Assembly: GCA_019914945.1 (NCBI GenBank)
Contig: JAAWWQ010000019.1
Location: 1-64,000, forward strand
Direction: 5' to 3'
Length of the DNA: 64,000 bases
Source of the DNA: Typha latifolia
Lineage: Eukaryota > Streptophyta > Magnoliopsida > Poales > Typhaceae
Shown: positions 16,617 through 47,378 of the stretch, piece after piece
Position numbering within the stretch: the stretch's first letter is position 1
How the letters are laid out: every line of letters begins with the position of its first letter
The notes under the pieces: generated by a model
What the model saw: only the letters and a program-made list of their open reading frames with translations
Database searches by the model: none
What the model was told of the DNA's origin: nothing
Translations under genes and position numbers: made by a program

Positions 16617-16636
16617 CGAACCTCAGACCTCCATTA

Positions 16637-17945: not shown

Positions 17946-18571
17946 AACCAATCAGGAGTGTGATGCTCATCGACGATCTTGAGGAGGACGATGAGGTTGT
18001 TGGTTATTGAGAGTGTTCACAGGAGGTCCATGGGGAGGCCGTTGAGGAGGGCACAAAGTAAGATATCTAAGCTGAAATATCGATGCATGTATATTTAGGT
18101 ACTTCAACGCCGATGACATTGAGGGAAGATAGACTCGTTAGAAAACATTGTGTGCAAGGAGATTCGGCTTGGATGCTGAACCAACCATGGGGTTTGATGT
18201 TGCAATTGGAGACGGCATGAAAGCTTAAGGTGGAGAGATTGTCTTGCCGGGTCGGTATACGGGTGCAAGGACACGACATCATTGTGGACCTGTATTCGTT
18301 AGCGCTACGAGGAGCGGACATTGTCCTTGTTGCTCAGTGGTTACAGAGTTTGGAACAAGTCACATTTGTTTTTCAAAACATGTGGATGAAATTTAAGCAA
18401 GGAAACAAATATGTGCGGCTTGATGGCGTTCGTTCTCTGTCGATTCCTGCGATGCAGCCGATGGTGGGGCTGCCTTGTGTGAGTGAGTCTCAAATGAGTC
18501 CAAATACTATCATAGAGTCTCAAATGAGTCTCACAACTGAACAGCGGATGTACACAAAACTGCATTTCTAA
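17946..18571 (+). pseudogene. Element G protease remnant and protease-RT linker
   Basis: After EEDDEVV the expected D-T/S-G active-site segment is not readable, so most of the protease appears lost. The frame 18230-18571 then reads VGIRVQGHDIIVDLYSLALR, GADIVLVAQWLQSLEQVTF and [18 protein letters not shown], the conserved linker upstream of RT. GADIVL starts at about 18313. This linker is the ancestral source of the left end of every array unit: its GGACATTGTCCTT (18316) corresponds to GGACACTGTCCTTAG at each unit junction. It jumps at about 18530 into the RT segment ending at 18661. Confidence 0.75.
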
Positions 18572-18960
18572 TGCCGGACGGACATTACCAGTTCCGAGTG
18601 ATGCCTTTTGGTCTTGTCAATGCTCCAGCTAGTTCTAAAGGCCTCATGAATGATATTTTTCGGACACTGTCCTTAGCACTCAGTGGTTGCAGAGTTGGGA
18701 CCCATCACTTTTGATTTCCTTGCTTAAATCAGTGGTTACAAGTTTGGAACCCGTCACATTTGATTCGGAGTATGTGGACGAAATTTAAGCAAGGAAACAA
18801 AAATGTGAGGCTTGATGGCGTTCGTTCTCTGCAGATTCCTACGATGCAGCTGATATTGGGGCTGCCTTGTGCGAAGGAGTCTCAAATGACTACAGATACT
18901 ACCATAGAGTAGTCCAATTTATTAGACAAATTTGTTGGACTGTTTGAGGAACTGAACGAG

Positions 18961-19347
18961 TTGCCACCAAGGAGAACTGCGGGCCATCGCATAGAGATTG
19001 TGTCCAGGGCAACACCGGCGAATGTGAGGCCATATCGGTATCCACATATGCGAAAGGAAGTTATTTCTAAGATGGTAGCCGAGATGTTGGACCAAGGCCT
19101 CCTACAACCAAGTAATAGCTCTTATTCATCGCTATTGCTATTGGTGCGAAAAGACGGGACATGGTGTTTCTGTGTCGATTACTGGGCACTAAATGCTATC
19201 ACCATTAAGGATCGGTATCCCATTCCGGGCATAGTAAAGCTGTTGGATGAGCTTGCAGGGGTGACCATATTCAGCAAGCTTGACATGAGGACCGGGTATC
19301 ATCAAATTAGAGTTCACCCAGCGGATTTGCACAAAACTGCATTTTGA
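18961..19347 (+). pseudogene. Best-preserved RT fragment of an array unit
   Basis: An open frame of 129 codons covers [40 protein letters not shown], a [20 protein letters not shown] block and [20 protein letters not shown], then a stop after HKTAF. These are the RT fingers and first palm segment, with the Asp of LDMR that pairs with YxDD in an active enzyme. The unit continues to 19438 as [20 protein letters not shown] and then joins the next unit. It cannot be active because the YxDD half is absent. Confidence 0.85.
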
Positions 19348-19438
19348 ACTCCGAACGGGCATTACGATTTTCGAATGATGCCTTTTGGTCTTACCAAAGC
19401 TCCAGCTAGTTTTCAAGGCCTCATGAATGATATTTTTC

Positions 19439-19847
19439 GGACACTGTCCTTAGCACTCAATGGTTGCAGAGTTGGGACCCGTCACTTTTGATTTCTCGAG
19501 CATATGGATGAAACTTAAGCAAGGAAGCAAAGATGTGCGGCTTGATGGCGTTTGTTCCCTTCTGATTCTTGCGATACAGCCGATGGTGGGACTGCCTTGT
19601 GCGAGTGAGCATCAAATGTGTCCAAATACTACCATAAATGTGTCTAATTTATTAGACAAATTTGCTTGACAGTTTGAGGAATCGATTGAGTTGCCACAAA
19701 GGAGAACGGTAGACTATCGCATAGAGATTGTGCCCGGGGCTACACCGGTGAATTTGAGACCATATCGGTATCCACATGTCCAAAAGAAAGTTATTTCCAA
19801 GATGGTAGCCAAGATGTTAGACCAAGGCCTCAAGCATGATATATTTC
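19439..19847 (+). repeat. Array unit with a deleted RT core
   Basis: This 409-bp unit passes from DQGLK directly into the NDIF junction ([10 protein letters not shown]), losing about 310 bp of RT. It keeps the linker and the RIEIVPGATPVNLRPYRYPH segment and shows that array units decay separately. Confidence 0.75.
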
Positions 19848-20573
19848 GGACACTGTCCTTAGCACTTAGTGGTTGCAGAGTTGGGACCCGTCAGTGTTGA
19901 ATTTTAGAGCATATGTATGAAATTTAAGCAAGGAAACAAAGATGTGCGACTTGATTGCGTTCGTTCTCTGCCGATTATTGCGATGCAGCCGATGGTGGGA
20001 CTGTCTTGTGCGAGTGAGCCTCAAAACTCCAGATACTGCAATAGATTTGTCTAATTTATTAAACAAATTTGCTGGAATGTTTGGGGAAACAAAGGAGATG
20101 CCACAAATGAGAACGGTGGACCATCGCAAAGAGATTGTGCCCGGGGCTACACAAGCGCATGTGAGGCCATATCGGTATCCACATTTGCAAAAGGAAGTTA
20201 TTTCCTAGATGGTGGCCATGATGTTGGACCAAGGTTTCATACAACCAAGTCATGGCTTACTCATCGCCAATGTTATTGATGCGAGAGAACGGGACATGGT
20301 GTTTTTGTGTCTACTAGCGGGAAGTAAACGCTATCACCATAAAAGATCGGTATCCCATTCCGGTCATAGAGGAGCTATTGGACGAATTTGTAGTGGCGAC
20401 CAAATTCAGCAACATTGACATGATGGCTGGGTATCATCAAAATTGAGTTCACCCGAAGGATGTGCACAAAACTGCATTTCGGACTCCGGACGGGCGTTAC
20501 TAGTTACGAGTGATGCCTTTCGGTCTTACTAATGCTCCAGCTAGTTTTTAAGGACTCATTAATGAAATTTTTC

Positions 20574-23500
20574 GGACACTATCCTTAGCACTCAGTGGTT
20601 GCCTTGTTGGGACCCGTCAGTTTTGATGTTTGAAGCATAAGGATGAAATTTCAACAAAGAAACAAAGATGTGCGGCTTGATGGCGTTAGTTCTCGGGTGA
20701 TTCTTGTGATGCAGCCGATGGCGGCGCTGCCTTGTGCGAGTGAGCCTCAAATGAGTCCAGATACTACCACATAGACTTGTCTAATTTATTAGACAGTCTG
20801 AGGAACTAAATGAGTTGCCACCAAGGAGAACGATGGACCCTCGCATAGAGATTGTGCCCGGGGCTACACCGGCGAATGTTAGGCCATATCGGTATCCAAA
20901 AGTGCAAAAGGAAGTTATTTCCAAGATGGTAGCCGAGATGTCGGACCAAGGCCTCATACAGCCAAGTCATATCTCTTACCCATCGCCAATGCTATTGCTG
21001 CGAGAGGACGCGATATAGTGTTTTTATGTCGACTACCGGGCACTAAACGCTATCACCATTATGGATCGGCATACCATTCCGGTCATAGAGATGCTGTTGG
21101 ACGCGCTTGCATAGGCGACCATATTCAGCAAGCTTGACTTGAGTGTCGGGTATCATCAAAAATAGAGTTCACCGGGCGGATGTGCACAAAACTGCATTTC
21201 GAACTCCGGATGGGTATAACATCGAAGTGATGCCTTTTGGTCTTACCAACGCTCCAGCTAGTTTTCAAGACTTCATGAATTATATTTTTTGGACACTGTC
21301 CTTAGCACTCAGTGATTGCAGAGTTGGGACACGTCAGTTTTGATTTCTGGAGCATATAGATGAAATTTAAGCAAGGAAACAAAGATGTGCTGCGTGATGG
21401 TGTTCATTCTGTACCGATTCTTGCGATGCAGCCGATGGTGGGGCTGCGTTGTGCGAGTGAGCCTCAAATGAGTCTAGATACTACCACAGACTTGTCTAAT
21501 TTATTAGACAAATTTACTGGACTGTTTTAGGAACCGAAGGAGTTGCCACCAAGGAAAATCGCGGAGCGTCGCATAGAGATTGTGCCCGGGGCTACACCGG
21601 CGAATGTGAGGCCATATCGGTATCAACATGTGCGAGAGGAAATAATTTCCAAGATGATAGCCGGGATGTTCGACTAAGGCGTCACACAACCAAATAATAG
21701 CTCTTACTCATCGCCATTGCTGTTGGTGTAAAAAGACGTGACGTGGTGTTTTTGTGTGGACTACAGAGCACTAAACGCTATCACCATTAAGGATGATTAT
21801 CCCATTCCGGTCACATGAGGGCCGGGTTTCATCAAAATCGAGTTCACCAGCGGGTGTGCACAAAACTGCATTTTGCACTCCGTACGGGCATTACTAGTTC
21901 GAAGTGATGCAATTTGGTCTTACAAATGCTCCAGCTAGTTTTCAATGCCTCATTAATGATATTTTTTCGGACACTGTCCTTAGCACACAGTGGTTGCAGA
22001 GTTCAGACCCGTCAGTTTTGATTTCTGAAGCATATGGATGAACTTTAAAAAAGGAAACAAAGATGTGCGGCTTGATGGGGTTCATTCTCTGCCAATTCTT
22101 GCGATGGAGCCGATGGTGGGGCTCCCTTCTGCGAGTGAGCCTCAAATGAGTCCAGATACTACCACAGACTTGTCTAATTTATTACAATAATTTTCTGGAA
22201 TGTTTGAGGAACCGAAGGAGTTCCCAGCAAAGAAAATCGCGGACCGTCGCATAGAGATTGTGCCCAGGGCTACATCAGCGATTGTGAGGTCATATCGGTA
22301 TCCACATGTGCGAGAGGAAGTTATTTCCAAGATGGTAGCCGAGATGTTCGACCAAGGCGTCATACAACCAAGTAATAGCTCTTACACATCGCCAATGCTA
22401 TTGCCGCGAGAGTACGGGACATAGTGTTTTTATGTCGACTACCAGGCACTAAACGCTCTCACCATTAAGGATCGGCATCCCATTCCGGTCATAGAGGAGC
22501 TGTTGGACGAGCTTCCATAGGCGACCATATTCAGCAAGATTGACTTGAGTGTCGGGTATCATCAAAATAGAGTTCACCGGGCGAATGTGCACAAAACAGC
22601 ATTTCGGACTACGGACGGGTATTACATCCCAGTGATGCGTTTTGGTCTTACCAACGCTCCAGGTAGTTTCAAGACTTCATGAAATATATTTTTTGGACAA
22701 TGTCCTTAGCTCTAAGTGGTTGCAGAGTTGGGACCCGTCAATTTTGATTTCTGGAGCATATAGATAAAATTTAATAAGCAAGGAAACAAAGATGTGCTGC
22801 GTGATGGTGTTCGTTCTGTGCCGATTCATGCAATGCAGCTGATGGAGAGGCTGCCTTGTGCGAGTGAGCATCAAATGTGTCCAGATACTACCACAGACTT
22901 GTCTAATTTATTAGACAAATTTAGTGGACTGTTTGAGGAACCGAATGAGTTGCCACCATAGAAAATCGCGGACCGTCGCATATAGATTGTGCCCGGGGCT
23001 ACACCAGCGAATGTGAGGCCATATCGGTATCCACATGTGCAAGAGGAAGTTATTTCCAAGATGGTAGCCGGGATGTTCGACCAAGGCGTCATACAACCAA
23101 GTAATAGCTCTTACTCCTCGCCATTGCTGTTGGTGCAAAAAGACGTGACATGGTGTTTTTGTGCGGACTACCGAGCACTAAATGCTATCACCATTAAGGA
23201 TCGGTATCCCATTCCAGTCATATAGGAGCTGTTGGACGAGTTTGCAGGGGCGACCATATTCAGAAAGCTTGACCTGAGGGCCGGGTATAATCAAAATTGA
23301 GTTCACCCGGCGGATTTGCACAAATCTGCATTTTGCATCCGTACAGGCATTACTAGTTCCGAGTGATGCATTTTGGTCTTACAAATGCTCCAGCTCGTTT
23401 TCAATGCCTCATTAATGATATTTTTCAGACAGTGTCCTTCGCACACAGTGGTCGCAAAGTTGGGACCTGTCAGTTTTGATTTTTGAAGCATATGAATGAA

Positions 23501-25800
23501 ATTTAAGCAAGGAAAGAAAGATGTGACGCTTGATGGCGCTCGTTCTCTTCCGATTCTTCCGATACAGCCGATGGTGGGGCTGCCTTGTGCGAGTGAGCCT
23601 CAAATGAGTCCAAATACTACCAAAGACTTGTCTAATTTATTACACAAATTTACTGGACTGTTTAAGGAACCGAAGGTTATTACCCAGGAAAATCACGGAC
23701 CGTCGCATAGAGATTGTGCCCAGGGCTACACCGGCAAATGTGAGGGCATATCATTATCCACATGTGCAAGAGGAAGTTATTTCCAAGATGGTAGCCGGGA
23801 TGTTCAACCAATCGCCATTGCTATTGCTGCGAGAGGACGGGACAGAGTGGTTTTATGTCGACTACCGGGCACTAAACGCTATCACCATTAAGGATTGGCA
23901 TCCCATTCCGGTCATAGAGGAGCTGTTGGACGAGCTTGCACAGGCAACCATATTCAGCAAGCTTGACTTGAGAGTCGGGTATCATCAAAATAGGGTTCAC
24001 CGGGCGGATGTGCACAAAACAGCATTTCGGACTCCGGACAGGTATTACATCCCAGTGATGCGGTTTGGTCTTACCAACGATCCAGGTAGTTTTCAAGATT
24101 TCATGAATTATATTTTTTGGACATTGTCCTTAGCACTCAGTTGTTGCAGAGTTGGGACTAGTCAGTTTTTATTTCTGGAGCATATATATATAATTTAAAT
24201 AAGGAAACAAAGATGTGCTGCGTGATGGCGTTCGTTCTCTGCCGATTCTTGCGAGGCAGCCGATGGTGGGGCTACCTTGTGCGAGTGAGCCGCAAATGAG
24301 TCCAAATACTACCATGGACTTGTCTAATTTATTAGACAAATTTACTGGATTGTTTGATGAACCGAAGGAGTTGCCACCAAGGAAAATCGCGGACCGTCGC
24401 ATAGAGATTGTGCCCTGGGCTACACTGGCAAATGCGAGGCCATATCGGTATCCCCATGTGCGAGCGGAAGTTATTTCCAAGATAGTAGCCAAGATGTTGG
24501 ACCAAGACCTCATACAACCAAGTCATAGCTCTTACCCATCGCCAATGCTATTGCTGCGAGAGGACGGGACATAGTGTTTTTATGTCGACCACCAGGCACT
24601 AAACGCTATCACCATTAAGGATCGACATCCCATTCAGGTCATAGACGAGCTGTTGGACGAGCTTGCATAGGCGACCATATTCAGCAAGCTTGACTTGAGG
24701 GTCGGGTATCATCCAAATAGAGTTCACCGGGCGGATGTGCACAAAACAGCATTTCAGACTCCGGACGGGTATTAAATCCCAGTGATTCGTTTTGGTCTTT
24801 CCAAAGCTTCAGGTAGTTTTCAAGACTTCTTGAATTATATTTTTTGGACACTATCTTTAGCACTCAGTCGTTGCAGACTTGGGACCCGTCAGTTTTGATT
24901 TCTGGAGCATATATATAAAATTTAACTAAGGAAACAAAGATGTGCTGCGTGATGGTGTTCGTTCTCTGCCGATTCTTGCGATGCAGCCGATGGTGGGGTT
25001 GCCTTGTGCGAGTGTGCCTCAAATGAGTCCAGATACTACCATATATTTGTCTAATTTATTAGACAAATTTACTGGACTGTTTGAGGAAAATCGCGGACCA
25101 TCGCATAGGGATTGTGCCCGAGGCTACACCGGCGAATGTGAGGCCATATCGGTATCCACATGTGCGAAAAGAAAATTATTTCCAAGATGGTACCCGGGAT
25201 GTTCGAACAAGGCGTGATACAACCAATTTAGCACTCACCGGACGGATCTGCAGAAAAACTACATTTTGCACTACGTACGGGCATTACTAGTTCCGAGTGA
25301 TGCATTTTGGTCTTACAAATGCTCTAGCTAGTTTTCAATGCCTCATTAATGATATTTTTCGGACACTATCCTTAGCACATAGTGGTTGCAGAGTTCGGAC
25401 CCGTCAGTTTTGATTTCTGGAGCATATACATGAAATTTAAGCAAGGAAATAGAGTTCACCGGGCGGATGTGGACAAAACAGCATTTTGGACTCCGGACGG
25501 ATATTACATCCAAGTGATGCCTTTTGGTCTTACCAACGCTCAAGGTAGTTTTCATGACTTCATGAATTATATTTTTTGGACACTGACCTTATAACTTAGT
25601 GGTTGCAGAGTTGGTACCCGTAAGTTTTGATTTCTGGAGCATATAGATAAAATTTAAGCAAGGAAACAAACTTGTGCTGCGTGATCGCTTTCGTTCTCTA
25701 CCGATTCTTGGGATGCAGCCGATGGTGGGGCTGCCTTGTGCGAGTGAGCCACAAATGAGTCCAGATACTACCATAGACTTGTCTAATTTATTAGACAAAT
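20574..25800 (+). repeat. Higher-order block 1 of the RT array
   Basis: Junctions in this block alternate between two variants: TTCGGACA (R type, NDIFR) and TTTGGACA (W type, NYIFW). The order is R, W, R, W, R, W, W, R, W at 20574, 21291, 21969, 22695, 23427, 24119, 24846, 25361 and 25578. The same order and matching spacings recur in block 2. The rare 217-bp spacing at 25361-25578 is shared. Confidence 0.75.
25361..25577 (+). repeat. 217-bp mini-unit with a shared deletion
   Basis: Linker sequence passes at AAGCAAGGAAATAG directly into the RT segment GTTCACCGGGCGGATGTGG, so 500 bp of unit is missing. The same deletion, with GTGGACAAAAC instead of the usual GTGCACAAAAC, is found at 43590-43806. 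That marks the two sites as copies of one event. Confidence 0.85.
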
Positions 25801-28800
25801 TTACTGGACTGTTTGAGGAACCAAAGGAGTTCCCACCAAGGAAAATCACGGACCGTCGCATAGAGATTGTGCCCGAGGCTACACCGGCGAATGTTAGGCC
25901 ATAACGGTATCCCCAAGTGCAAAAGGAAGTTATTTCCATGATGGAAGCCGAGATGTTGGACCAAGGCCTCATACAACCAAGTCATTGCTCTTACCTATCG
26001 CCAATGCTGTTGGTGCAAAAAGATGTGACATGGTGTTTTGTGTCGACTACCGAGCACTAAACGCTATAACCACTGAGGATCGGCAACCCATTCCGGTCAT
26101 AGAGGAGCTGTTGGACGAGCTTGCATAGGCGATCATATTCAGCAAGCTTGATTTGAGGGTCGGGTATCATCAAAATAGAGTTCACTAGGCGGATGTTCAC
26201 AAAACAGCATTTCGAACTGCGGATAGGTATTACATCCAAGTGATGCTTTTTGGTCTTACCAACACTCCAGGTAGTTTTCATGACTTCATGAATTATATTT
26301 TTTGGACACTGTCCTTAGCACTCAGTGGTTGCAGAGTTGGGACCCTTCAGTTTTAATTTTTGGAGCATATAAATGAAATTTAAGCAAGGAAACAAAGATG
26401 TGCTGCGTGATGGCGTTCCTTCTCTGCCGATTCTTGCGATGAAGCCGATGGTGGGGCTGCCTTGTGCGAGTTAGCCTCAAATGAGTCCAGATACTACCAT
26501 ATATTTGTCTAATTTATTAGACAAATTTACTGGACTGTTTGAGGAACCGAAGGAGTTGCCACCAAGGAAAATCGCGGACCGTCGCATAGAGATTCTGCCC
26601 TGGGCTACACTGGCAAATGTGAGGCCATATCGGTATCCACATGGGCGAAAAGAAAATTATTTCCAAGATGGTAGCTGGGATGTTCGAAGAAGGCGTCATA
26701 CAACCAATTAATAGCTCTTACTCATCGCCATTGCTGTTGGTGCAAAAAGATGTGACGTGGTGTTTTTGTGTCGACTACCGAGTACTAAACACTATCACCA
26801 TTAAGGATTGGTATCGCATTCCGGTCATATAGGAGCTGTTGGACGAGTTTGCAGTGGCGACCATATTCAGCAAGCTTGCCTGAGGGCCGGGTATCCTCAA
26901 AATTGATTTCACCGGGCGGATCTACACAAAACTGCATTTTTCACTACGTATAGGCATTACTAGTTCCGAGTGATGCATTTTGGTCTTACAAATGCTCCAG
27001 GTAGTTTTCAAATCCTCATTAATGATATTTTTCGGACACTATCCCTAGAACATAGTGGTTGCAGAGTTGGGACCCGTCAGTTTTGATTTCTGAAGCATAT
27101 GGAAGAAATTTAAGGAAACAGAGCTGTGCAGCTTGATGGCGTTCGTTCTCTACCGATTCTTACGATGCAGCCGATGGTATTGCTGCCTTGTGCAAGTGAG
27201 CCTCAAATGAGTCCAGATACTACCATAGATTTTTCTAATTTATTAGACAAATTTACTGGACTGTTTGAGAAACCGAAGGAGTTGCCACAAAGGAGAACAG
27301 CGGACCGTCGAATAGGGATTGTTCCCGGGGCTACACCGGCGAATGTGAGGCGTATCGGTATCCACATGTGCGAAAGGAAGTTATTTCCAAGATGGTAGCC
27401 GAGATGTTGGACCAAGGCCTCATATAACCAAGTCATACCTCTTACCCATCGCCAATGTCGTTGGTGCAAAAAGACCTGACATGGTGTTTTTGTGTCGACT
27501 ACCGAGCACTAAACACTATCACCATTAAGGATCGGCATCCCATTCTGGTCATAGAGGAGCTGTTGGACGAGGTTGCATAGGCGACCATATTCAGCAAGCT
27601 TGACTTGAGGGTCGGGTATCATCAAAATAGAAGTCACCGGGCGGATGTGCACAAAACAGCATTTCGAACTCCGGACGGGTATTACATCCAAGTGATGCTT
27701 TTTGGTCTTACCAACGCTCCAGGTAGTTTTCATGACTTCATGAAATATATTTTTTGGACACTGTCCTTAGCACTCAGTGGTTGCAGAGTTGGGACCCTTA
27801 AGTTTTAATTTCTGGAGCTTATAGATGAAATTTAAGCAAAGAAACAAAGATGTGCCGTGTGATGGCGTTCCTTCTCTGCCGATTCTTGCGATGAAGCCGA
27901 TGGTGGGGCTGCCTTGTGCGAGTGAGCCTCAAATGAGTCCATATACTACCAGATAAATTAGACAAATTTACTGGACTGTTTGAGGGACCGAAGGAGTTTC
28001 CATCAAGGAAAATCGCGGACCATCGCATAGAGATTCTGCCCTCGGCTGCACTGGCGAATGTGAGGCCATATCGGTATCCACATGTGCAAAAAGAAAATTA
28101 TTTCCAAGATGGTAGCCGGGATGTTCGAACAATGCGTCATACAACCAATTAATAGCTCTTATTCATCGCCATTGCTGTTGGTGCAAAAAGATGTGACGTG
28201 GTGTTTCTGTGTCGACTACCGAGCACTAAACACTATCACCATTAAGGATTGGTATCCCATTCCAGTCATATGGGAGCTGTTGGACGAGTTTGCAGAGGCG
28301 ACCATATTCAGCAAACTTGACCTGAGGGCCGGGTATCATCAAAATTGATTTCTCCGGGCGGATCTGCACAAAACTGCATTTTTCACTACGTATGGGCATT
28401 ACTAGTTCCGAGTGATGCATTTTGGTCTTACAAATGCTCCAGCTAGTTTTCAATTCCTCATTAATGATATTTTTCGGACACTATCCCTAGAACATAGTGG
28501 TTGCAGAGTTGGGACCCGTCAGTTTTGATTTCTGAAGCATATGGATGAAATTTAAGGAAACAGAGCTGTGCAGCTTGATGGCATTCGGCGAATGTGAAGC
28601 GTATCGGTATCCACATGTGCGAAAGGAAGTTATTTCCTAGATGGTAGCCAAGATGTTGGACCAAGGCCTCATATAACCAAGTCATAGCTCTTACCTATCG
28701 CCAATGCCGTTGGTGCAAAAAGACGTGACATGGTGTTTTTGTGTCGACTACCGAGCACTAAACGCTCTCACCATTAAGGATCGGCATCCCATTCTGGTCA

Positions 28801-29693
28801 TAGAGGAGCTATTGGACGAGTTTGCATAGGCGACCATATTCAGCAAGCTTGACTTGAGGGTCTAGTATCATCAAAATAGAGGTCACTGGGCGGATGTGCA
28901 CAAAACAGCATTTCGGACTCCGGACGGGTATTACTAATTCCGAGTGTTGCATTTTGCTCTTTCATTTACCAGCCAGTTTTCACTGCCTAATTAATGATAT
29001 TTTTCGGACATTGTCCTTAGCACTCAGTGGTTGCAGAGTTGGGGCCCGTCAATTTTGATTTCTGAAGCATATGGATGAAATTTAAGCAAGGAAACAAAGA
29101 TCCGCGGCTTGATTGCGTTCGTTCTCTGCCGATTCTTGCTATGTAGCCGATCGTGGGGCTGCCTTGTGCGAGTGAGCCTCAAATGAGTCCAGCTACTACC
29201 ATAGAGTTGTCTAATTTATTAGACAAGTTTTCTAGACTGTTTGAGGAACTGAAGGATTTGCCACCAAGGAGAACGGTGGACCCTCGCATAGAGATTGTGG
29301 CCGGGGCTACACCGGCGAATATGAGGCCAGATCGGTATCCACCTGTGCAAAAGGAAGGTATTTCCAAGATGGTAGCCGAGATGTTGGACCAAGGCCTCAT
29401 ACAACCATGTCATAGCTCTAACTAATCGCCAATGCTATTGGTGCGAGAGGACAGGACATGGTGTTTTTATGCCAACAACCGGGCACTAAACGCTATCATC
29501 ATTAATGATTAGTATCTCATTCCGGTCATAGAGGAGCTGTTGGATGAGCTTGCAGAGGCGAGCATATTCAACTAGCTTGACTTGAGGGCCAGGTATCATC
29601 AAATTAGTTTTCATCCGGCGGATGTGCACAAAACTGCATTTTGGACTCCGGACGGGCATTACGAGTTCCGAGTGATCCCTTTTAGTCTTACCA

Positions 29694-30756
29694 AAGCTTG
29701 GGGTGTTCCCCTATCCAAAAACCCCCCCTTCCTCGGCCACCAAGAGCGAAAATCCAACACTTGGGCCGTCACAAGTTGGAGGATGGCGATTCCAACAGTG
29801 GAGCAGGCCAACCACCAAATCAGTCGCGCCCCTTGTTCAGTCCAGACGGGTTCTCGTCTATACCAACATCCTCCACCTGGGCTGCTGCCAGCTATAGCGT
29901 CCTCTAGGCGCACGATTGTTCGGACCACCAGCTGCAACTAGAGAAGGTGGTGGTGCAGTACTAACCACCGGTCCAACTCGAGCATTGGTGGCTACTTACC
30001 GACGGGCCCCTGCTGCAAACCACCATTCCTTGGGCGGCCACTGTAAGGCCAAGGGGCCCTCCACCCCATCAGCCCGACCCATGGGACCCTCCTTAGATCC
30101 TTCATCCCCCTATGATTAGACCAAAGATGAGGTATGACCCCAACCGTGATAATGGTATCTGCGGACGCACCACACGGCTCGATTTTCCAAAATTCCGAAG
30201 TAACCAATTGGATTGGATTTTTCGAGCTAAGTAGTTTTTTGGGTACCAGGGCACCGTGGAAGACGTCAAGGTGTTGTTGGCGAGCTTTCACTTGGAGGGG
30301 CGGCCCTACATTGGTACCAGTCGGTTAGCACCCACCAACTATGCGAGACTTGGACCAAGTTCATAGAGGGGCTCTCAAGGCGATTTGGCACCTCCGACTT
30401 CGAGGACTATCATGCCACTCTCTCCAAATTGGTTCATCGGACATCCATAGCCTCTTACCAAGAGGAGTTTGAGCATGTGAGTAGCTGGTGCCAACCCCTT
30501 TGGCTGTAATAGTTGTTGATCAGCACATTCATCTCTATCCTGCGCAAGGAGATCAAGGTTGATGTCCTCTCCCAATGACCTTAGACGTTGAGCAAGGCCT
30601 TTGAGGATGCCATAGAGATGGAGCAAAAAATTCAACCCTAGGGAGTGCCCTGAGGACCTCATGGGGCAGGCAGGATAGTCAATTCACCTCACGTGTACCA
30701 GATGGGGGTGGAGGGCCGGTAGTTGCTTCGAGGGCTAATCATTCCCCCTTTGGTGT
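29694..30756 (+). pseudogene. Element E-type gag, copy 1
   Basis: The segment opens as [20 protein letters not shown] in one frame. It continues through a proline-rich N-terminal part and then, in shifted frames, TRLDFPKFRSNQLDWIF, TWTKFIEGLSRRFGTSDFED and YHATLSKLVHRTSIASYQEE, the gag core. HVSSWCQPLWL ends in TAATAG, followed by LLISTFISILRKEIKVDVLS with more stops. The same TAATAG and later stops are present in the copies at 56693 and 58627. The N-terminus is replaced by RT-array sequence. It is a dead capsid gene. Confidence 0.75.
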
Positions 30757-31388: not shown

Positions 31389-31425
<37 letters not shown>

Positions 31426-31493: not shown

Positions 31494-31499
31494 TCTCTA

Positions 31500-33310: not shown

Positions 33311-33339
33311 ATCGCTCGGCGAAACGGCTGCCTAATTAT

Positions 33340-34329
33340 CTAGCATCCACAGACTGAGACCTCAGGCGTAGGCCCTGCTATATATACTATAAAATATCCC
33401 CCACCCCTAACCCTGGCTAGAGAGGTGTCGGGTACTGCCGAGACATAGAATCGTCCCCCTTCGGGTCGTGTATGTGTGCTAGTGTCATGATAAGAGAATT
33501 AAATTTAGCATAATAGAATAGTAAACATGGTTACCTAAGCATGCGACACATCACATTAAATAAATAATAAATCATGCCAAGCAACATATTAAATAGACAG
33601 GTTTTGCTAGAATGCAAAGATTAGCATGTCATATATGCTTATGCTATAACATTAAATAATAAATCAAGAGTGGATAGACCACTTGCCTACATTCGCTAAA
33701 AAGTCCCTAGTGAAGAGCAGTCCCCACCTAATCATGGAGCAGTCCCCACCTAATCATGGCTTGTCCCGAGCTGAGCGCTAGTCATTGGGTGCTCTACAAC
33801 AGGATCACTAAGTCAACACCAAAATCTTAAAAAGATTTACTAGGAATAGAAAATGGGGACAGGTAGTATTAAATGCTATGGATTAAGATAAAGGGGAAAG
33901 AAAACCTGATTCAACCCCTACCCTGCCCCAAAACATGAGGCGAAGCCCAAGAAAGAAAAATGGGCTCAAAAGAACGTATCGAGCTGGGCCAGGCCAAGCT
34001 TGCAGCCAGCGCTCGTGGTGGCCAGGCCTAGCCCGGGGTGGGCACAACACGCTCAGGATGGCCCTAGGCCGGCGCACCCGGGCTGGCCCAGTCCAACCTG
34101 GGGTGGGCTCAATGTGCTCGAGCCAGCCGAGCTAGCCCGAGGGGGGGCGTGCCTGTGCAATATCCTACCTCGAGCCAAGAAGGGAGGTACCACCACCTCC
34201 CTTACAATCCTCAAGTCGCCACTCCCCTACCATGGGGGGAAGCACCAAGGCAAGCACCCCACTACCTAAGGAAGGAGGGGCGGTGACGATGCGCAGTCCG
34301 AAGCGCAGTTTCATCACCGGAGAGAAAAG
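33340..34329 (-). repeat. Second LTR-D-like copy, non-coding
   Basis: Positions 34190-34329 parallel 31120-31275 (ACCACCTCCC, the GGGGAAGCACCAAGG stretch, GGAGGGGCGGTGA, CATCACCGGAGAG). Positions 33900-34190 share its G/C-rich words. The proximal part (33340-33880) is A/T-rich and has no counterpart in copy 1. It is probably the opposite LTR of the same minus-strand element, interrupted at 34329 by LTR-A. Confidence 0.55.
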
Positions 34330-36117
34330 AGTAACGCCCCAGCCCGGCAAGGGCACGTGCATGCCCACGCCCACACGACCACACGGCACGTGAGAGGACG
34401 GGCAGGGCCCATCACGCACAGATACTCTCCTGTGCACATATAATCATGACATCATCAAATAAACCTGCTAACCTATCTATAATCACATACATCACCAAAT
34501 AAATCATACTATTAACTAAATAAACCTGTTAACATATTAATATCCAAGTCCATAATAATATACACTAGACCACTACATAATCTGGCAGGACCCACACAGG
34601 CCACAACAAACCATCAAGATACAACTAAAATAACTAATACAAGAGTACGCTATGATTCGACCTGTATTATACAGATCATCGTCTAATAGAAAAGAGTACA
34701 AATATCAAATACTGGTACAACTCAATTTCTATATAAACTATAATCTATACCATCTCGCATCTATAGCTCACCTCATCTTTGCTCTAAAATATCTCATCAG
34801 GATATCTCAAGTCGGTATCATGTATCATAATATTTGTGGGGGTTAAAAAAAAAATAAAGAGAGTCATAAGCAAAAGGCTCAGTGAATAGACCTTATCCCA
34901 AACCAGTGATGCCAAACAAAGAGTAAATTATGTACTGGATAATATGAATCAGAAAGCAGTATGATGCCACGTATGAGCATGTATATATGTATCCTTAATG
35001 ACATATACATAAACGAAATCAATTCTCATAAATGAGCATATTATATCCTCAACTAAAAATATATCACATGATGAAATTACCATATAACTTCACCGAATAT
35101 AACAACATAACATGTATAACAATTATGATCCAATGATACTAGTCACATCAATGATAATGTATGATGCATGCCAACCACTAGATAATCGTATATGTTAGAG
35201 GCAGATATAATCCACATATCTCTCACTATCGCAATCATCCATCTCAACTCTAAATATCATCCACCATGTTGGACTACGGTACCCGGCCCCAAACTCGATA
35301 CGCTAAGAGTATCTCTTTAGATAAATCATACCTTGCCATACGCTAAGAGTATCTCAAAAGGAAGTAATCATACCCTGCCATATGCTAAGGGTATATCAAT
35401 GATAGTTGTACCTTGCCATACGCTAAGAGTACAACCATTAGCCATCAACATACTCTGTCATACGCTAAGAGTATGTCCAGTACTAGCCCGGACCAGATAC
35501 CATTCCAGCCATCACATCATATCACATCACATCACATCACATACACATATACTTTTAGGATTTCTTATAAATGATAGATCATATGCATATATCCAGTACT
35601 GTAATAGATCATGCAACTCAGGAATTTAGGTGGTAAAGAAGTCAAGAGAAAAATGATGTAATGCAGACTCTAACCATGTATCTAACATATGCATACTCCT
35701 GCTAGTCTATCACATGCATACTCATACTAGAGATCATCTCGGTATAAAATCATAACAGTGTAATCATTTCCAATCATCTCTATATATCACCAATGTATTC
35801 ATATCCCATATCAGCCTAATCAAATGCATGATAAAATATGCTTGACTGAAATCATCTCTAGATAAAGTCATATAATCATGCTGGAGGCCAAAATATAATA
35901 TATAATATATCCTAATTTGAGAAAAACATCTAGGGGAATAAGACTACTCACCTCCGATCAGAAAACCCAACACATGTATCCCTCACATCCATCAATCAAC
36001 CGTCACACATCACTAGCAAGGTCCACGGGGTCTCAAATAAGAGGGTTGAAATCTGAAAATAGTTAAGTAATATAAATTTAGTTATTTATCCAATTGGGAT
36101 CCATTTGTGTAAAAATT
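34330..36117 (-). mobile_element. LTR-A, minus-strand copy truncated at the RT array
   Basis: The plus strand starts AGTAACGCCCCAGCCCGGC, the reverse of an LTR-A end (expected TGTAACGCCC). It then follows the reverse of the inner solo LTR through the CCACACAGGCCACAACA words, the TAAGAGTAT repeats and the GGTCTCAAATAAG motif to about 36117. There it ends at RT-array sequence, so about 1.2 kb of its 5' part is missing. No coding content; the open frame at 34652-34846 is the antisense frame shared with 363-557. Confidence 0.75.
35275..35475. repeat. Degenerate 60-bp-spaced repeats within LTR-A
   Basis: CCATACGCTAAGAGTA or a variant occurs near 35295, 35336, 35376, 35416 and 35458, each with a nearby TACC-TGCCATA word that gives partial dyad symmetry. 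The equivalents in the inner and outer solo LTRs have fewer copies. Confidence 0.6.
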
Positions 36118-37945
36118 GATGTTAGACCATGGCCTCATACAACCAAGTCATAGCTCTTACTCATCGCCAATGCTATTGCTGCGAGAGGACGGGACATAGT
36201 GTTTTTATGTCGACTACCGGGCACTAAACGCTATCACCATTAAGGATCGGCATCCCATTCCGGTCATAAAGGAGCTGTTGGACGAGCTTGCATAGGCGAC
36301 CATATTCAGCAAGCTTGACTTGAGGGTCAGGTATCATCAAAATAGAGTTCACCGGGCGGATGTGCACAAAATAGCATTTCGGACTCCAGATGGACATTAC
36401 GAGTTCCGAGTGATGTGTTTTGGCCCTGCCAATGCTCCAGCTATTTCTAAAAGCCTCGTGAATGATATTTTTCGGACACTGTCCTTACCACTAAGTGGTA
36501 GCAGAGTTCGGACCCGTCAATTTTAATTTCTGGACTGTTTGGGGAAACGATTGAGTTGCCACAAAGGAGAACGGTGGACCATCACAAAGAGATTGTGCCC
36601 GGGGATACACCGGTGAATTTGAGACCATATCAGCATCCACATGTGCAAAAAAAATTATTTCTAAGATGGTAGCCGAGATGTTGGACCAAGGCCTCATACA
36701 ACCAAGTCATAGCTCTTACTCATTGCCAGTGCCATTAGGGAGAAAGGAAGGGACATGGTGTTTTTGTGTCAACTACCGGGCACTAAACACTATTAAGGAT
36801 CGGTATCCCATTCCAGTCATAGAGGAGCTGTTGGACGAGCTTGCGGGGACAACCATATTCAGCAAGATATGAGGGACAAGTATCATCAAAATAGAGTTCA
36901 CCCGGCTGATGCGCTCAAAATTGCAATTCGGATTCCGGACCGGAATTACGAGTTTTGAGTGATGCCTTTTGGTCTTACCAATGCTCCAACTAGTTTAAAA
37001 AGCCTCGTACTTAGCACTAAGTGGTTGCAGAGTTGGGACCCACCAAATTTTATTTCTGGAGCATATGGATGAAATTTATGCAAGGAAACAAAGATGTGCG
37101 GCTTGATGGCATTCGTTCTCTGCTGATTCTTGCGATGCGGTTGATGGTGGGACTGTGTTGTGCGAGTGAGCTTCAAATGAGTCCAGATACTACCAGAGAC
37201 TTGTGTAATTTATTAGGAAAATTTGCTATACTGTTTGAGTTACCGTAGGAGTTGTCACTAGGGAGAACAGCGGACCATCGCATAGATAAAACTTAAGCAA
37301 GGAAACAAAGATGTGCTGCGTGCTGGCGTTCGTTCTGTGCCGATTATTGCGATGCAGCTGATGGTGGGGCTGCCTTGTGCGAGTGAGCCACAAATGAGTC
37401 CAGCTACTACCACAGACTTGTCTAATTTATTATACAAATTTACTGGACTGTTTGAGGAACCGAATGAGTTGCCAGCATGGTAACTCGCGGACCGTCGCAT
37501 AGAGATTGTGCCCGGGGCTACACTGGCGAATGTGAGGCCATATCGGTATCAACATGTGCGATAGGAAGTTATTTCCAAGATGGTAGCCGGGATGTTCGAC
37601 CAAGGCATCATACAACCAAATAATAGCTCTTACTCATCGCCATTGCTGTTGGTGCAAAAAGACGTGACGTGGTGTTTTAGTGTGGACTACCGAGCACTAT
37701 ACGCTCTCACCATTAAGGATCGGTATCCCATTCCGGTCATATAGGAGCTGTTGGACGAGTTTGCAGTGGCGACCATATTCAACAAGCTTGACCTGAGGGC
37801 CGGGTATCATCAAAATTGAGTTCACCGGGCGGATGTGCACAAAATTGCATTTTGCACTCCGTTCGGGCATTACTAGTTCCGAGTGATGCTTTTTGGTCTT
37901 ACAAAGCGCCATCTAGTTTTCAATGTCTCAATATTGATATTTTTC

Positions 37946-40900
37946 GGACACTGTCCTTAGCACACAGTGGTTGCAGAGTTGGGACCCATCAGTTTTGATT
38001 TCAGAAGCATATGGATGAAATTTAAGCAAGGAAACAAAGATGTGTGGTTTGATGGCGTTCGTTCTCTGCCGATTCTTGCGATGCAGCCGATGGTGGGGCT
38101 GCCTTGTGCGAGTGAGCCTCAAATGAGTCCAGATACTACCATTGACTTGTCTAATTTATTAGACAAATTTACTGGACAGTTTGAGAAATCGAAGGAGTTG
38201 CCACCAAGGAGAACAGCGAATCGTCGCATAGAGATTATGCCCGAGGCAACACCGGCGAATGTTAGGCCATATTGGTATCCACAAGCGTAAAAAGAAGTTA
38301 TTTCCAAGATGGTAGCCGAGATGTTTGACCAACGCCTCATATAACCAAGTCATAGCTCTTACCCATCCCCATTGCTATTGCTGCGAGAGGACGGGACATA
38401 GTGTTTTTATGTCAACAATCGGGCACTAAACGCTATCACCATTAAGGATCGACATCCCATTCCGGTCATAGAGGAGCTGAGCTGTTGGACGAGCTTGCAT
38501 AGGTGACCATATTCAGCATGCTTGGCTTGAGTGTCGGGTATCATCAAAAATAGAGTTCACCGGGCATCCTGCACAAAATAGCATTTCGAACTCTGGACGG
38601 GTATTACATCCAAGTGATGCCTTTTGGTCTTACCAACGTTCCGGGTAGTTTTCAAGACTTCTTGAATTATATTTTTTGAACACTGTCCTTAGCACTCAGT
38701 GGTTGCAGATTTGGGACCCGTCAGTTTTGATTTCTGGAGCATATAGATGAAATTTAAGCAAGGAAACAAAGATGTGCTGTGTGATGGCGTTCGTTCTCTA
38801 CCGATTCTTGCGATGCAGCCGATGGTGGGGCTGCGTTGTGCGATTGAGCCTCAAATGAGTGTAGATACTACCACAGACTTGTCAAATTTATTAGACAAAT
38901 TTACTGGACTGTTTGAGGAACCGAAGGATTTGCCACCAAGGAAAATTGCGGACCGTCACATAGAGATTGTGCCTGGGGCTACACCGGCGAATGTGAGGCA
39001 ATATCGGTATCAACATATGCGAGAGGAAGTTATTTCCAAGATGGTAGCCGGGATGTTCGACCAAGGCGTCATACAACCAAGTAATAGCTCTTATCACTAT
39101 TTCTGTTGGTGTAAAAAGACATGACGTGGTGTTTGTGTGGACTACCGAGCACTAAACACTATCACCATTAAGGATCGGTAACCCATTCCGGTCATATAGG
39201 AGCTGTTGGACGAGTTTGTTGAGTCATATTCAGCAACCTTGACATGAGGGCCGGGTTTCATCAAAATTGAATTTACCCGGCGGATGTGCACAAAACTGCA
39301 TTTTGCACTCCGTACGGGCATTACTAGTTCGGAGTGATGCAATTTGGTCTTACAAATGCTCCTTGTTTTCAATGCCTCATTAATGATATGTTTTCGGACA
39401 CTGTCCTTAGCACACAGTGGTTGCAGAGTTGGGACCCGTCAGTTTTTATTTCTGAAGCATATGGATGAACTTTAAGCAAGGAAACAAAGATGTGCGGCTT
39501 GATGGCATTCGTTCTCTGCCGATTCTTGCGATGCAGTCGATGGTGGGGCTGCCTTGTGTGAGTGAGCCTCAAATGAGTCCAGATACTACCACAGACTTGT
39601 CTAATTTTTTATACAAATTTTCTAGACTGTTTGAGGAACCGAAGGAGTTGCCAGCAAAGAAAATCGTGGACTGTCGCATATAGATTGTGCCCAGGACTAC
39701 ACCAGCAAATGTGAGGCCATATCGGTATCCACATGTGCGAGAGGAAGTTATTTCCAAGATGGTTGCCGAGATGTTGGACCAAGGCGTCATACAACCAAGT
39801 AATAGCTTTTACCCATCGCCAATGCTATTGCTGCGAGAGTATGGGACATAGTGTTTTTAAGTCGACTAGCGGGCACTAAAGGCTATCAACATTAAGGATT
39901 GGCATCCCATTGCGGTCATAGAGGAGCTGTTGGACGAGCTTGCATAGGAGACCATATTCAGCAAGCTTGACTTAAGGGTCGGGTATCATTAAAATAGAGT
40001 TCATCGGGCGGATGTGCACAAAACAGCATTTCGGACTCTGGACGGGTATTACATCCCAGTGATGCGTTTTGGTCTTAGCAACGCTCCAGGTAGTTTTCAA
40101 TTTGGATTTCTGGAGCATATAGATGAAATTTAAGCAAAGAAACAAAGATGTGCTGCGTGATGGTGTTCGTTCTGTGCCGATTCTTGCGATGCAGCTGATG
40201 GTGGGCTGCCTTGTGCGAGTGAGCATCAAATGAGTCTAGACACTACCATAGACTTGTCTAATTTATTAGACAAATTTACTGGACTGTTTGAGGAACCGAA
40301 GGAGTTGCCACCAAGGAAAATCGCGGACCGTCGCATAGAAATTGTGCCTGGGGCTATACCGGCGAATGTGAGGCCATTAAGGATCGGTATACCATTGCGG
40401 TCATATAGGAACTGTTGGACGAGTTTGCAGGGGCGATCATATTCAGCAAGCTTGACCAGAGGGTCGGGTATCATCAAAATTGAGTTCATCGGGCAGATGT
40501 GCACAAAACTACATTTTGCACTCCGTACGGGCATTACTTGTTCCGAGTGATGCATTTTGGTCTTACAAATTCTCCAGCTAGTTTTCAATGCCTCAATAAT
40601 GATATTTTTCGGACACTAACCTTAGCACACAATGGTCGCAGAATTGGGACCCGTCATTTTTTATTTCTGGACTATATGGATGAAATTTAAGCAAGGAAAC
40701 AAAGATGTGCAGCTTGATGGCGTTTGTTCTCTGCCGATTCTTGCGATGCAGCCGATGGTGGGGCTGCCTTGTGCGAATGAGCCTCAAATGAGTCCAGATA
40801 CTACCATAGACTTGTCTAATTTATTAGACAAATTTACTGGACAGTTTGAGAAACCGAAGGAGTTGCCACCAAGGAGAACGGCGGACCATCGCATAGAGAT

Positions 40901-43900
40901 TGTGCCCGGGGTTACACAAGCGAATGTTAGGCCATATCGGTATCCACAAGTGCAAAAGGAAGTTATTTCCAAGATAGTAGCCGAGATGTTGGACCAAGGC
41001 CTCATACAACCAAGTCATAGCTTTTACCCATCGCCAATATGTGGCCAAATCGGTATCAACTTGTGCGAGAGAAGTTATTTCCAAGTTGGTAGCCGGGTTG
41101 TTCGACCAAGGCATCATACAACCAGGTAATAGCTCTTACTCATCGCCATTGCTGTTGGTGAAAAAAGACGTGACGTGGTGTTTTTGTGTGGACTACCGAG
41201 CACTAAACGCTATCACCATTAAGGATCGGTATCCCATTCCAGTCATATCGGAGCTGTTGGACGAGTTTGCAGTGGCGACCATATTCAGTAAGCTTGACTT
41301 GAGTGCCGAGTATCATCAAAATTGAGTTCATCTGGCGGATGTGCACAAAACTGCATTTTGCACTCCGTACAGGCATTACTAGTTCCGAGTGATGCATTTT
41401 GGTCTTACAAATGCTACAGCTAGTTATCAATGACTCATTAATGATATTTTTCAGACACTGTCCTTTGCATATAGTGGTCGCAGAGTTGGGACCCGTCAAT
41501 TTTGATTTCGGAAGCATATGGATGAACTTTAACCAAGGAAAGAAAGATGTGACGCTTGATGGCGTTCGTTCTCTACCGATTCCTTCCGATACAGCCGATG
41601 GTGGGGCTGCCTTGTGCGAGTGAGCCTCAAATGAGTCCAAATACTACAAGAGACTTGTTTAATTTATTACACAAATTTATTGGACTGTTTGAGGAACCGT
41701 AGGTTGCCACCAATAAAAATCGCAGACCATCGTATAGAGATTGTGCCCAGGGCTACACCGGCGAATGTGAGGTCATCTCGGTATCCACATGTGCGAGAGG
41801 AAGTTATTTCCAAGATGGTAGCCAGGATGTTCGACCAAGGTGTCGTACAACCAAGTAATAGCTGTTACCCATCGCCATTGCTATTGCTGCGAGAGGACAG
41901 GACATAGTGGTTTTATGTCGTCTACCGGGCACTAAACGCTATCACCATTAAGGATCGGCATCCCATTCCGATCATAGAGTGTTGGACGAGCTTGCATAGG
42001 CAACCATATTCAGCAAGCTTGACTAGAGAGTCGAGTATCATCAAAATAGAGTTCACTGGGTCGATGTGCAGAAAACAGCATTTCGGACTCCGGACGGGTA
42101 CTACATCCTTGTGATGCGGTTTGGTCTTACCAACGATCCAGGTAGTTTTCAAGATTTCATGAATTATATTTTTTTGACACTGTCCTTAGCACTCAGTGGT
42201 TGCAGAGTTGGGACCCGTCAGTTTTTATTTCTTGAGCATATAGATAAAATTTAAATAAGGGAACAAAAATGTGCTGCGTGATGGCGTTCGTTCTATGCCG
42301 ATTCTTGCGAGGCAGTCGATGGCGGGGCTACCTTGTGCGAGTGAGCCTCAAATGAGTCCAGATGCTACGACGGACTTGTCTAATTTATTAGACAAATTTA
42401 TTGGATTGTTCGAGGAACTGAAGAAGTTGCCACCAAGGAAAATCGCGGACCGTCGCATAGAGATTGTGCCCGGGGCTATACCGGAGAATGTGAGGCCATA
42501 TCGGTATCCACATGTGCGAGAGGAAGTTATTTCCAAGATGGTAGCCGAGATGTTGGACCAAGGCCTCATACAACCAAGTCATAGCTCTTACCCATCGCCA
42601 ATGCTGTTGCTGCGAGAGGACGGGACATAGTGTTTTTATGTCGACCACCGGGCACTAAACGCTATCACCATTAAGGATCGGAATCCCATTCAGGTCATAG
42701 AGGAGTTGTTGGATTAGCTTGCATAGGCGACCATATTCAGCAAGCTTGACTTAAGGGTCGGGTATCATCCAAATAGAGTTCACCGGGTGGATGTGCACAA
42801 AACAGCATTTCGGACTTCGGACGGGTATTAAATCCCAGTGATTCGATTTTGTCTTTCCAAAGCTCCAGGTAGTTTTCATGACTTCTTGAATTATATTTTT
42901 TGGACACTGTCTTTAGCACTCAGTGGTTGCAGAATTGCGACCCGTCAGTTTTGATTTCTGGAGCATATATATAAAATTTAAGCAAGGAAACAAAGATGTG
43001 CTGCGTGATAGTGTTCGTTCTCTGCCGATTCTTGCTATGCAGCTGATGGTGGGGCTGCCTTGTGCGAGTGAGCCTCAAGTGAGTCCAGATACTACCACAG
43101 ACTTGTCTAATTTATTACACAAATTTACTGGACTATTTGACGAACTAAAAGAGATTGTACCCGGGGTTACACCAGCGATTGTGAGGCCATATCGGTATCC
43201 ACATGTGCGAGAGAAAGTTATTTCCAAGATGGAAGCCGGGATGTTCGACCAAGGCGTCATACAACCATGTAATAGCTCTAATCATCGCCATTGATGTTGG
43301 TGCAAAAAGACGTGACGAGGTGTTTTTGTGTCGGCTACCGAGCACTAAACGCTATCACCATTAAGGATTGGTATCCCATTCCGATCATATAGGAGCTGTT
43401 GGACGAGTTTGCAGGGGCGACCATATTCAGCAAGCTTGACCTGAGGGCCGGGTTTCTTCAAAATTTTCACCGGGCGGATACACAAAACTGCATTTTGCAC
43501 TACGTACGGGCATTACTAATTCCGAATGATGCATTTTGGTCTTACAAATGCTCCAGCTAGTTTTCAATGCCTCATTAATGATATTTTTCGGACACTATCC
43601 TTAGCACACAGTGGATGCAGAGTTCGGACCCGTAAGTTTTGATTTCTGGAGCATATAGATGAAATTTAAGCAAGGAAAGAGAGTTCACCGGGCGGATGTG
43701 GACAAAACAGCGTTTCGGACTCCGTACGAGTAATACATCCAAGTGATGCCTTTTGGTCTTACCAACGCTCCAGGTAGTTTTCATGACTTCATGAATTATA
43801 TTTTTTGAACACTGTACTTATAACTCAGTGGTTGCAGAGTTGGGACCCGTCAATTTTGATTTCTGGAGCATATAGATGAAATTTAAGCAAGGAAACAAAC

Positions 43901-44030
43901 TTGTGCTGTGCAGGCTTTCGTTCTCTACCGATTCTTGCGATGCAGTCGATGGTGGGGCTGCCTTGTGCGACTGAGCCTCAAATGAGTCCAGATACTACCA
44001 TAGACTTGTCTAATTTATTTGACAAATTTA
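37946..44030 (+). repeat. Higher-order block 2 of the RT array
   Basis: The junction variants run R (37946), W (38678), R (39396), W (about 40099), R (40611), R (41453), W (42175), W (42902), R (43590), W (43807). This is the block 1 order with one extra R unit at 40611. Offsets to block 1 are 17372, 17387, 17427, about 17404, then 18026, 18056, 18056, 18229 and 18229 bp. The stepwise change fits duplication followed by indels. Confidence 0.75.
43590..43806 (+). repeat. 217-bp mini-unit, partner of 25361-25577
   Basis: AAGCAAGGAAAGAG is fused directly to GTTCACCGGGCGGATGTGG, the same deletion as in the left array. Confidence 0.85.
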
Positions 44031-45892
44031 CTGCACTGTTTGAGGAATCAACGGAGTTCCCACAAAGGAGAACGACGGACCGTCGCATAGAGATTGTTTC
44101 CGGGGCTACACCGACGAATGTGAGGCGTATCGGTATCCACATGTGCGAAAAGAAGTTATTTCCAAGATGGTAGCCGAGATGTTGGACCAAGGCCTCATAC
44201 AACCAAGTCATAGCTCTTACCCATCGCCAATGTCGTTGGTGCAAAAAGACGTGACATGGTGTTTTTGTGTCGACTACCGAGCACTAAACGCTATCACCAT
44301 TAAGGATTGGCATCCCATTCCGGTCATAGAGTAGCTGTTGGACGAGTTTGCATAGACGACCATATTCAGCAAGCTTGACTTGAGGGTCGGGTATCATCAA
44401 AATAGAGGTCACCGGGCGGATGTGCACAAAACAGCATTTCGGACTCCGGATGGGTATTACTAATTCCGAGTGATGCATTTTGCTCTTATAAAAGCTCCAG
44501 ACAGTTTTCAATGCCTAATTAATGATAATTTTAGGACATTGTTCTTAGCACTGAATGGTTGCAGAGTTGGGACCCGTCAATTTTGATTTCTGAAGCATAT
44601 GGATGAAATTTAAGCAAGGAAACAAAGATGTGCGGCTTGATTGCGTTCGTTTTCTGCCGATTCTTGCTATGTAGCCGATGGTGGGGCTGCCTTGTGTGAG
44701 TGAGCCTCAAATGAGTCCAGCTACTACCACAGAGTTGTCTAATTTATTAGACAAATTTGCTAGATTGTTTGAGGAACCGAATGATTTGCCCCCAAGGAGA
44801 ACGGCGGACCCTCGCATAGAGATTGTGGCCGGGGCTACACCAGCCAATATGTGGCCATATCGGTATCCACCTGTGTAAAACGAAGGTATTTCCAAGATGG
44901 TAGCCGAGATGTTGGACCAAGGCCTCATACAACCATGTCATAGCTCTTACTAATCGCCAATGCTATTGGTGCGAGAGGACAGGACATGGTGTTTTTATGA
45001 CAACTACCGGGCACTAAACACTATCACCATAAATGATCGGTATCCCATTCCGGTCATAGAGGAGCTGTTGGATGAGCTTGCAGAGGCCAGCATATTCAGC
45101 TAGCTTGACTTGAGGGCCGGGTATCATCAAATTAGTTTTCATCCGGCGGATGTGCACAAAACTGCATTTTGGACTCCGGACGGGCATTATGAGTTCCGAG
45201 TGATCCCTTTTAGTCTTACCAATGCTCCAGCTTGTTTTCAAGGCCTCATGAATGATATTTTTCGGACACTGTTCTTAGCACTCTGTGGTTGCAGAGTTGG
45301 GACCCGTAAGTTTTGATTTATGGAGTATATGGATGAAATTTAAGCAAGGAAACAAAGATGTGCGCCTGGATGGCATTCGTTCTCAGCCGATTCTTGTGAT
45401 GTAGCCGATGGTGGGACTGTCTTCTGCGAGTGAGCCTCAAATGAGTCATATACTACCATAGACTTGTCTAATTTATTAGACAAATTTGCAAGACTGTTTG
45501 AGGAAGCGAAGGAGTTACCACCAAGGAGAACGGCGGACCATCACATAGAGATTGTGCTCGGGGCTAACCGGCGAATGTGAGGCCATATCGGTATCCACAC
45601 GAAAGGACGGGTCATGGTATTTTTGTGTCGACTACCGAGCACTAAACACCATCACCATTAAGGATTGTTATCCTATTTTGGTCATAGAGGAGCTGTTGGA
45701 CGAGCTTGCAGTGGCGTCCATATTCAGCAAGCTTGACTTGAGGGCCGGGTGTCATCAAATTAGTGTTCACCCGGCTGATGTGCATAAAAAATGCGTTTCG
45801 GACTTCAGACGGGCATTACGAGTTCCGAGTGATGCATTTTGGTCTTACCAATGCTCTAGCTACTTTTCGAGGCCTCATGAATGATATTTTTT

Positions 45893-47350: not shown

Positions 47351-47355
47351 AGGTT

Positions 47356-47368: not shown

Positions 47369-47378
47369 CGTGGTGGGC

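Follow-up and report, generated by a model that had tools for sequence, protein, structure and literature searches.

A slice of pol repeated in tandem inside a dead Ty3/Gypsy element: an old, single-locus satellite-in-the-making in Typha latifolia

Can the coding sequence of a retrotransposon turn into satellite DNA, and can the process be followed while the repeats still reside in the element that supplied them? The beginnings of satellites are usually inferred from the likeness of a finished satellite to a transposon. The locus described here brings together, within one 32-kb stretch, the donor with its ancestral flanks, the breakpoints, the early copies and the later types, so that much of the succession of events is legible. 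The window analysed comprises 64,000 bp (bases 1-64000 of contig 19, which is 75,000 bp long), and the assembly searched 214 Mb in 62 contigs. A degenerate Ty3/Gypsy element at 15530-48136 carries a slice of pol of about 727 bp repeated head-to-tail, the first unit being joined to the 5' flank and the last to the 3' flank. We regard the locus as a real, old, single-locus satellite-in-the-making in a dead gypsy copy.

The element, whose parts are all on the + strand, is bounded by LTRs starting with TG and ending with CA. The 5' LTR (15530..16599), delimited by alignment to the 3' LTR and to the relatives L010 and L012, includes an additional stretch of about 300 bp absent from the 3' LTR (47379..48136), itself delimited by alignment to the 5' LTR. 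Short candidate target-site duplications are found beside the LTRs, CTTAG at 15525..15529, weak if taken alone, and GTTAG at 48137..48141, identical at four of the five bases. A primer-binding-site-like sequence (TTAGTATCAGAG..., 16600..16620), recognized by its sequence and by the relative L012, is presumably an initiator-Met tRNA site. It is followed by a single-copy leader, gag and protease region (16621..18315), colinear in BLASTN with L010 to position 4003. On the other side of the array, 45892..47378 holds the single-copy rest of RT, an RNase H-equivalent region and the partly deleted 3' end of pol, as aligned to L010, L012 and L045, with domains named by their position in L012. The 3' parts of this region align with L012 and L045, relative to which about 0.8 kb is absent 3' of the RNase H-equivalent region, and a G-rich PPT-like tract lies immediately 5' of 47379. 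Domains follow in the order gag, protease and RT. Retrotrans_gag (17174-17545, E 1.6e-4) and RVP_2 (18221-18568, E 6.7e-4) fall slightly short of the Pfam cut-off; RVT_1 was matched in two of the five array frames scanned, once above the cut-off, and not in the other three, the best match spanning model positions 17-144 of 205. In L012 gag, RVP_2, RVT_1 and RNase H all exceed the cut-off, and the ordinary element layout is seen in L010, L011 and L012, all from the same genome. The window also contains further retroelement pieces, at about 6.0-6.7, 8.7-9.4 and 61.0-62.0 kb, and two near-perfect short minisatellites, at 3678-3803 (37-bp unit, 3.4 copies) and 13619-13806 (36-bp unit, 5.2 copies).

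A BLASTN search of the window with one unit found the slice throughout 18359-29698 and 36118-45894, on the + strand only. The original prediction had drawn the array over 18316..45892; it holds for two blocks, but the intervening 29697-36117 is foreign DNA. As delimited by BLASTN and a junction scan, the left block (18316..29697, 11.4 kb, 17 junctions) and the right block (36118..45891, 9.8 kb, 12 junctions), which continues into single-copy RT, add up to 11,382 + 9,774 = 21,156 bp, or 29.1 unit-equivalents. With 29 junctions, the predicted 30 or so copies over about 21 kb are thus borne out. Unit 0 (18316..18663), the left end of the element's own slice, is continuous with the 5' flank and internally deleted; an example of a full unit, 726 bp long, lies at 21970..22695. 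The unit corresponds to L010:4004-4777, and extends from the protease-RT linker into mid-RT. To call it an RT fragment, as was done before, is correct for its reach into RT, but not for its start, which lies upstream, in the linker.

The units are joined by a constant junction, found in an approximate-match scan in 29 array copies, each at most six edits from a 37-base probe. A 30th copy occurs at 57966, outside the array, and the junction is absent, on both strands, from the rest of the window, and from the following 10 kb of contig 19. The best of 20 shuffled control sequences gave 10 edits. Among eight relative loci six gave at least 11 edits, one 9, and one (L050, on C10) 6, equal to the worst array copies. 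Adjacent junctions are mostly 679-732 bp apart, and rearranged intervals measure 217 (twice), 409, 515, 530, 777, 842, 1215 and 1472 bp. The full-length filter was passed by 19 units. Dispersed fragments, the finding that would have spoken against tandem amplification, look unlikely given the constancy of the junction. Tandem Repeats Finder, with a longest searched period of 500 bp, is blind to an array of this kind, and missed it.

The window sequence is colinear with L010 on both sides: 16065-18486 corresponds to L010:1633-4173, the segment L010:4004-4777 is repeated, and 45602-46667 corresponds to L010:4486-5527. The array flanks are single-copy. As proposed, one delimited piece of pol was multiplied within one Ty3/Gypsy element, with a constant junction. 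A gypsy insertion into a pre-existing satellite was rejected, since in the relatives the unit and its flanks make up a single colinear stretch of pol. A deletion of 39 bp is found at all 29 array places retaining the site, including unit 0 (at 18501), the undeleted form at none of them, while the latter is present in six of eight relatives; for the relatives only the undeleted-form probe counts, as the deleted-form probe also matched, among the eight, four relatives that keep the 39 bp. Since the deletion is common to the array and the left flank, the array derives from its own element. The possibility that the deletion marks a sister subfamily was discarded: among L047-L049, three places with shorter alignments to the unit query, none carries the same deletion. 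L048 is undeleted at the site, L049 has a different deletion, and L047 shows neither form. A second change, a missing T, follows 28 of the 29 array junctions, the last one being a tie, and the T is retained in unit 0; the array thus traces to one early copy of the slice. The array shares a common origin with the element that carries it. At the junction L010:4776/4777 is fused to 4004, and both ends share GG (CGG in some copies). By frame count 4004 is a codon position 1 and 4776 a position 2, so the duplication is out of frame.

The head-to-tail arrangement and constant junction (29 copies of it) are those of a satellite, but the units are poorly homogenised: K2P distances average 0.161 and range from 0.055 to 0.229 (190 pairs of 20 units), and the longest exact repeat in the array is 90-99 bp. 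The LTRs differ by 0.167 (CI 0.136-0.199) over all aligned sites, and by 0.127 (CI 0.097-0.161) in the core. Since the units diverge no less than the LTRs, the earliest duplications are put at roughly the time of the insertion, perhaps earlier. Changes private to units are spread evenly over codon positions (128/126/109, chi-square p 0.41), while those separating three pairs of relatives fall mostly at the third position (25/25/47, p 0.007; 21/17/42, p 0.001; 24/27/38, p 0.16). The third-position share differs between units and each of these pairs (Fisher p 0.001, 0.0002 and 0.03). The units have therefore drifted without coding constraint, and their divergence is neutral. Ten fixed differences between array and relatives, distributed 2/2/6, fit a coding past, but are few. 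Sites marking the unit types A and B described below are distributed 14/3/4, an excess at position 1 that counts against the reading preferred below.

The tree covers 19 near-full units and three relatives, together with the truncated unit preceding the insert and the displaced piece at 57973; shorter pieces, omitted from it, were compared individually. The leftmost full unit, u18678, joins the relatives (97/93); type A includes 10 units (89/99) and type B six (100/100), to which u19849 is basal (82/80). A third type (88/98) is made up of u44535, the truncated unit preceding the insert, and the displaced piece. Five of the 21 inner branches are weak. Adjacent A and B units differ in type in nine of 11 pairs (permutation p 0.024), in an irregular order, and the distance between units two apart (0.119, eight pairs) compares with 0.146 for neighbours (13 pairs). 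Two mini-units of 217 bp, at 25362..25578 and 43591..43807, both on the + strand, carry the same internal deletion, and sit in blocks 18,229 bp apart and 87% alike; other block pairs are 92% alike at an offset of 18,060 bp, and 94% at 15,526 bp. Blocks were thus duplicated within the array, and the alternation of A and B, the closeness of units two apart and the shared mini-unit blocks all indicate growth in the chromosome.

Older copies may lie at the edges of the array, as both ends hint, in a mixed pattern. By mean p-distance u44535 is nearest to the relatives (0.143), followed by its near twin (0.145), and u18678 (0.164) and u19849 (0.167) are unremarkable; the third type as a whole ranges from 0.143 to 0.153, the remaining units from 0.163 to 0.182. 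Third-type members occupy the right end of the array, the border of the insert and the displaced piece. The near twin of the right-end u44535 thus lies mid-array, beside the insert, against a clean order of age from edge to centre. As for the end pieces, 18316-18516 is nearest the relatives, 18544-18677 nearest the third type, and 45602-45891 equally near both.

The foreign DNA that splits the array is a 6.4-kb insert, X (29697..36117, + strand), and its ends are found again at contig positions 58632-60913 and 64758-67561. X is present twice on contig 19 (29697-36117 and 58632-67561), the left parts being about 90% and the right ends 94% alike, and about 750 bp of array sequence accompanies the left part of both copies. 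Directly left of the second copy, 12 kb downstream of the array, lies the displaced piece of about 750 bp (57879..58631, + strand), made of a unit end, a junction and about 659 bp of the next unit. Array sequence was thus copied, together with X, to the second place. The second copy is preceded by an extra copy of the first 1.2 kb of X (56692-57878), and in a genome search with 40 of 88 candidates scored the left 1.2 kb of X was found at full length on contig 19 only. Nearby, a 1.15-kb direct repeat (50803-51928 and 53039-54193) is 91% alike, with a part that corresponds, in reverse, to X's right end.

Whether the unit has spread was monitored by searching the assembly with an 81-base junction, 40 of 84 candidates being scored. 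Of the scored places, 27 span the junction on contig 19, where 30 junctions are known, a ratio that gauges the sensitivity of the search; among those elsewhere, 12 are matched on a single side and one, on C10, crosses the junction by 10 bases. No other array was found in the assembly at this depth of scoring. The many loci or very long arrays of an abundant satellite were likewise not seen, the junction occurring on contig 19 only among the 40 of 84 candidates scored. One unit used as query hit at least 36 loci off contig 19, at 76-81% identity, among 38 of 1682 candidates scored. Spread as a satellite is accordingly not supported, as 27 of the 28 scored places crossing the junction are on contig 19, and the 28th has an unrelated left flank. 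The latter place (L050, C10:6556680) was rejected as a second junction on account of this flank and because the 39 bp are kept; its left flank matched nowhere else in a search with surroundings (40 of 1150 candidates scored). At L050:4681-5084 a 404-bp fragment begins, in unrelated surroundings, exactly at the unit start base L010:4004; perhaps this base marks a break-prone site, perhaps the coincidence is due to chance. At one of the loci hit with the unit query, L045 (C8:5063500-5073400), a larger slice of pol, about L010:3294-5057, is duplicated in tandem, the two copies being about 83% alike, and the duplication contains a nested one of 194 bp. This separate case implies that internal duplication occurred at least twice in this element family.

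Taken together, the array most probably started as a chance duplication of a pol slice in a dying or dead element, and then grew on the spot, through unequal exchange and the duplication of blocks. A slice of about 730 bp, with ends sharing 2-3 bp (GG/CGG), would have been duplicated in tandem in a single Ty3/Gypsy copy; the frame would have been lost through the duplication, leaving the pol of the carrier copy broken thereafter. Within the chromosome the doublet may then have expanded as units exchanged unequally or slipped during replication, and duplication of multi-unit blocks would have led to about 29 copies of a few types, with two of them tending to alternate. The present state would correspond to an early, single-locus stage of a satellite, now decaying. 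Exchange is the presumed mechanism, and all growth of the array would plausibly postdate the insertion.

Alternatively, tandem pol slices may have been present in gypsy RNA or cDNA before or during insertion, the array or its first few copies having been made by repeated template switching in reverse transcription, having arrived with the element, and having been enlarged later by the chromosome. We consider this unlikely. Unit divergence equal to or above LTR divergence agrees with it, and the tandem repeats that Ogre-type elements carry in the 3' UTR have been hypothesised to be made during element replication (PMC7004042, in the part available). Yet, no other array-bearing copy was found in the assembly, with 40 of 84 candidates scored, and copies of several ages, as well as the shared block that carries a private rearrangement, call for growth in the chromosome, at least at later stages. 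In addition, an RNA of about 26 kb would be a poor substrate. Were multiplication before or during insertion true, repeats of coding regions would be a product of reverse transcription able to seed satellites directly. Still less probable is rolling-circle copying of a circle made from the slice, followed by its return through homologous recombination. A single constant junction and a regular period suit a circle, and circles from plant satellites have been described (PMC2543021, in the part available); a burst of this kind predicts a star-like tree, but the observed groups are nested, at distances of 0.055-0.229, unless later growth masked the burst. That mis-joined reads expanded a single RT copy is hardly credible, even though contig 19 is small, has a round length of 75,000 bp, and may have been cut out in scaffolding, because units 5-23% apart (K2P) with no exact repeat reaching 100 bp appear too divergent for an assembly duplication, and because the derived changes common to units follow a genealogy, whereas duplicated reads would give identical copies.

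Chance duplication and growth in place imply that the coding sequence of a dead element can turn into a satellite-like array without a repeat of the untranslated region, and from the locus one can predict clearly what to expect in other haplotypes and in sister species. The notion that a satellite is being born here keeps the alternating unit types and block duplications in its favour; spread as a satellite was not found at the depth of the searches. The view that amplification of coding sequence is unusual has to be softened, as gag- and pol-derived satellites are already mentioned in reviews (PMC9659126 and PMC12628747, in the parts available).

In the available text of these and related sources, the 3'-UTR tandem repeats of Ogre elements gave rise to satellites in Lathyrus (PMC7004042), and to PisTR-A in pea (PMC9659126). 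As in Ogre, tandem repeats within a Ty3/Gypsy element seed a satellite, and element domains flank the array in the expected order. Unlike Ogre, in which repeats lie downstream of gag-pol, in dispersed elements, the unit here is protease-RT coding sequence, in one element; repeats between the end of pol and the 3' LTR, typical of Ogre/Retand, are replaced by a unit inside pol. The rye satellites E900/E3900 stem from LTR-element gag, PROsat and Pvc 20 from LINE-1 ORF2, and the chicken HinfI satellite from CR1 ORF2 (PMC9659126, in the part available). As in all of these, a coding stretch forms the monomer or part of it. In the same part of that review an array still within its donor element is not described, and Table 1 has no entry for an RT slice of an LTR element, although a human row says any region and the legend of Figure 2 marks POL. 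In the literature searched, with subscription journals mostly outside it, no array of an RT slice residing within its parent element was recognised. Alpha satellite higher-order repeats, and other mature satellites, feature distinct alternating unit types and multi-unit duplication. The array described here has unit types that tend to alternate and block duplications too; unlike alpha satellite, it is confined to a single locus, counts about 29 units, has an irregular order, and is poorly homogenised. What reviews state on gag and pol satellites is general, and this locus adds one worked intermediate with its ancestral flanks. Satellites from gag or pol of LTR elements are already known; the intermediate still residing inside its parent is the valuable part.
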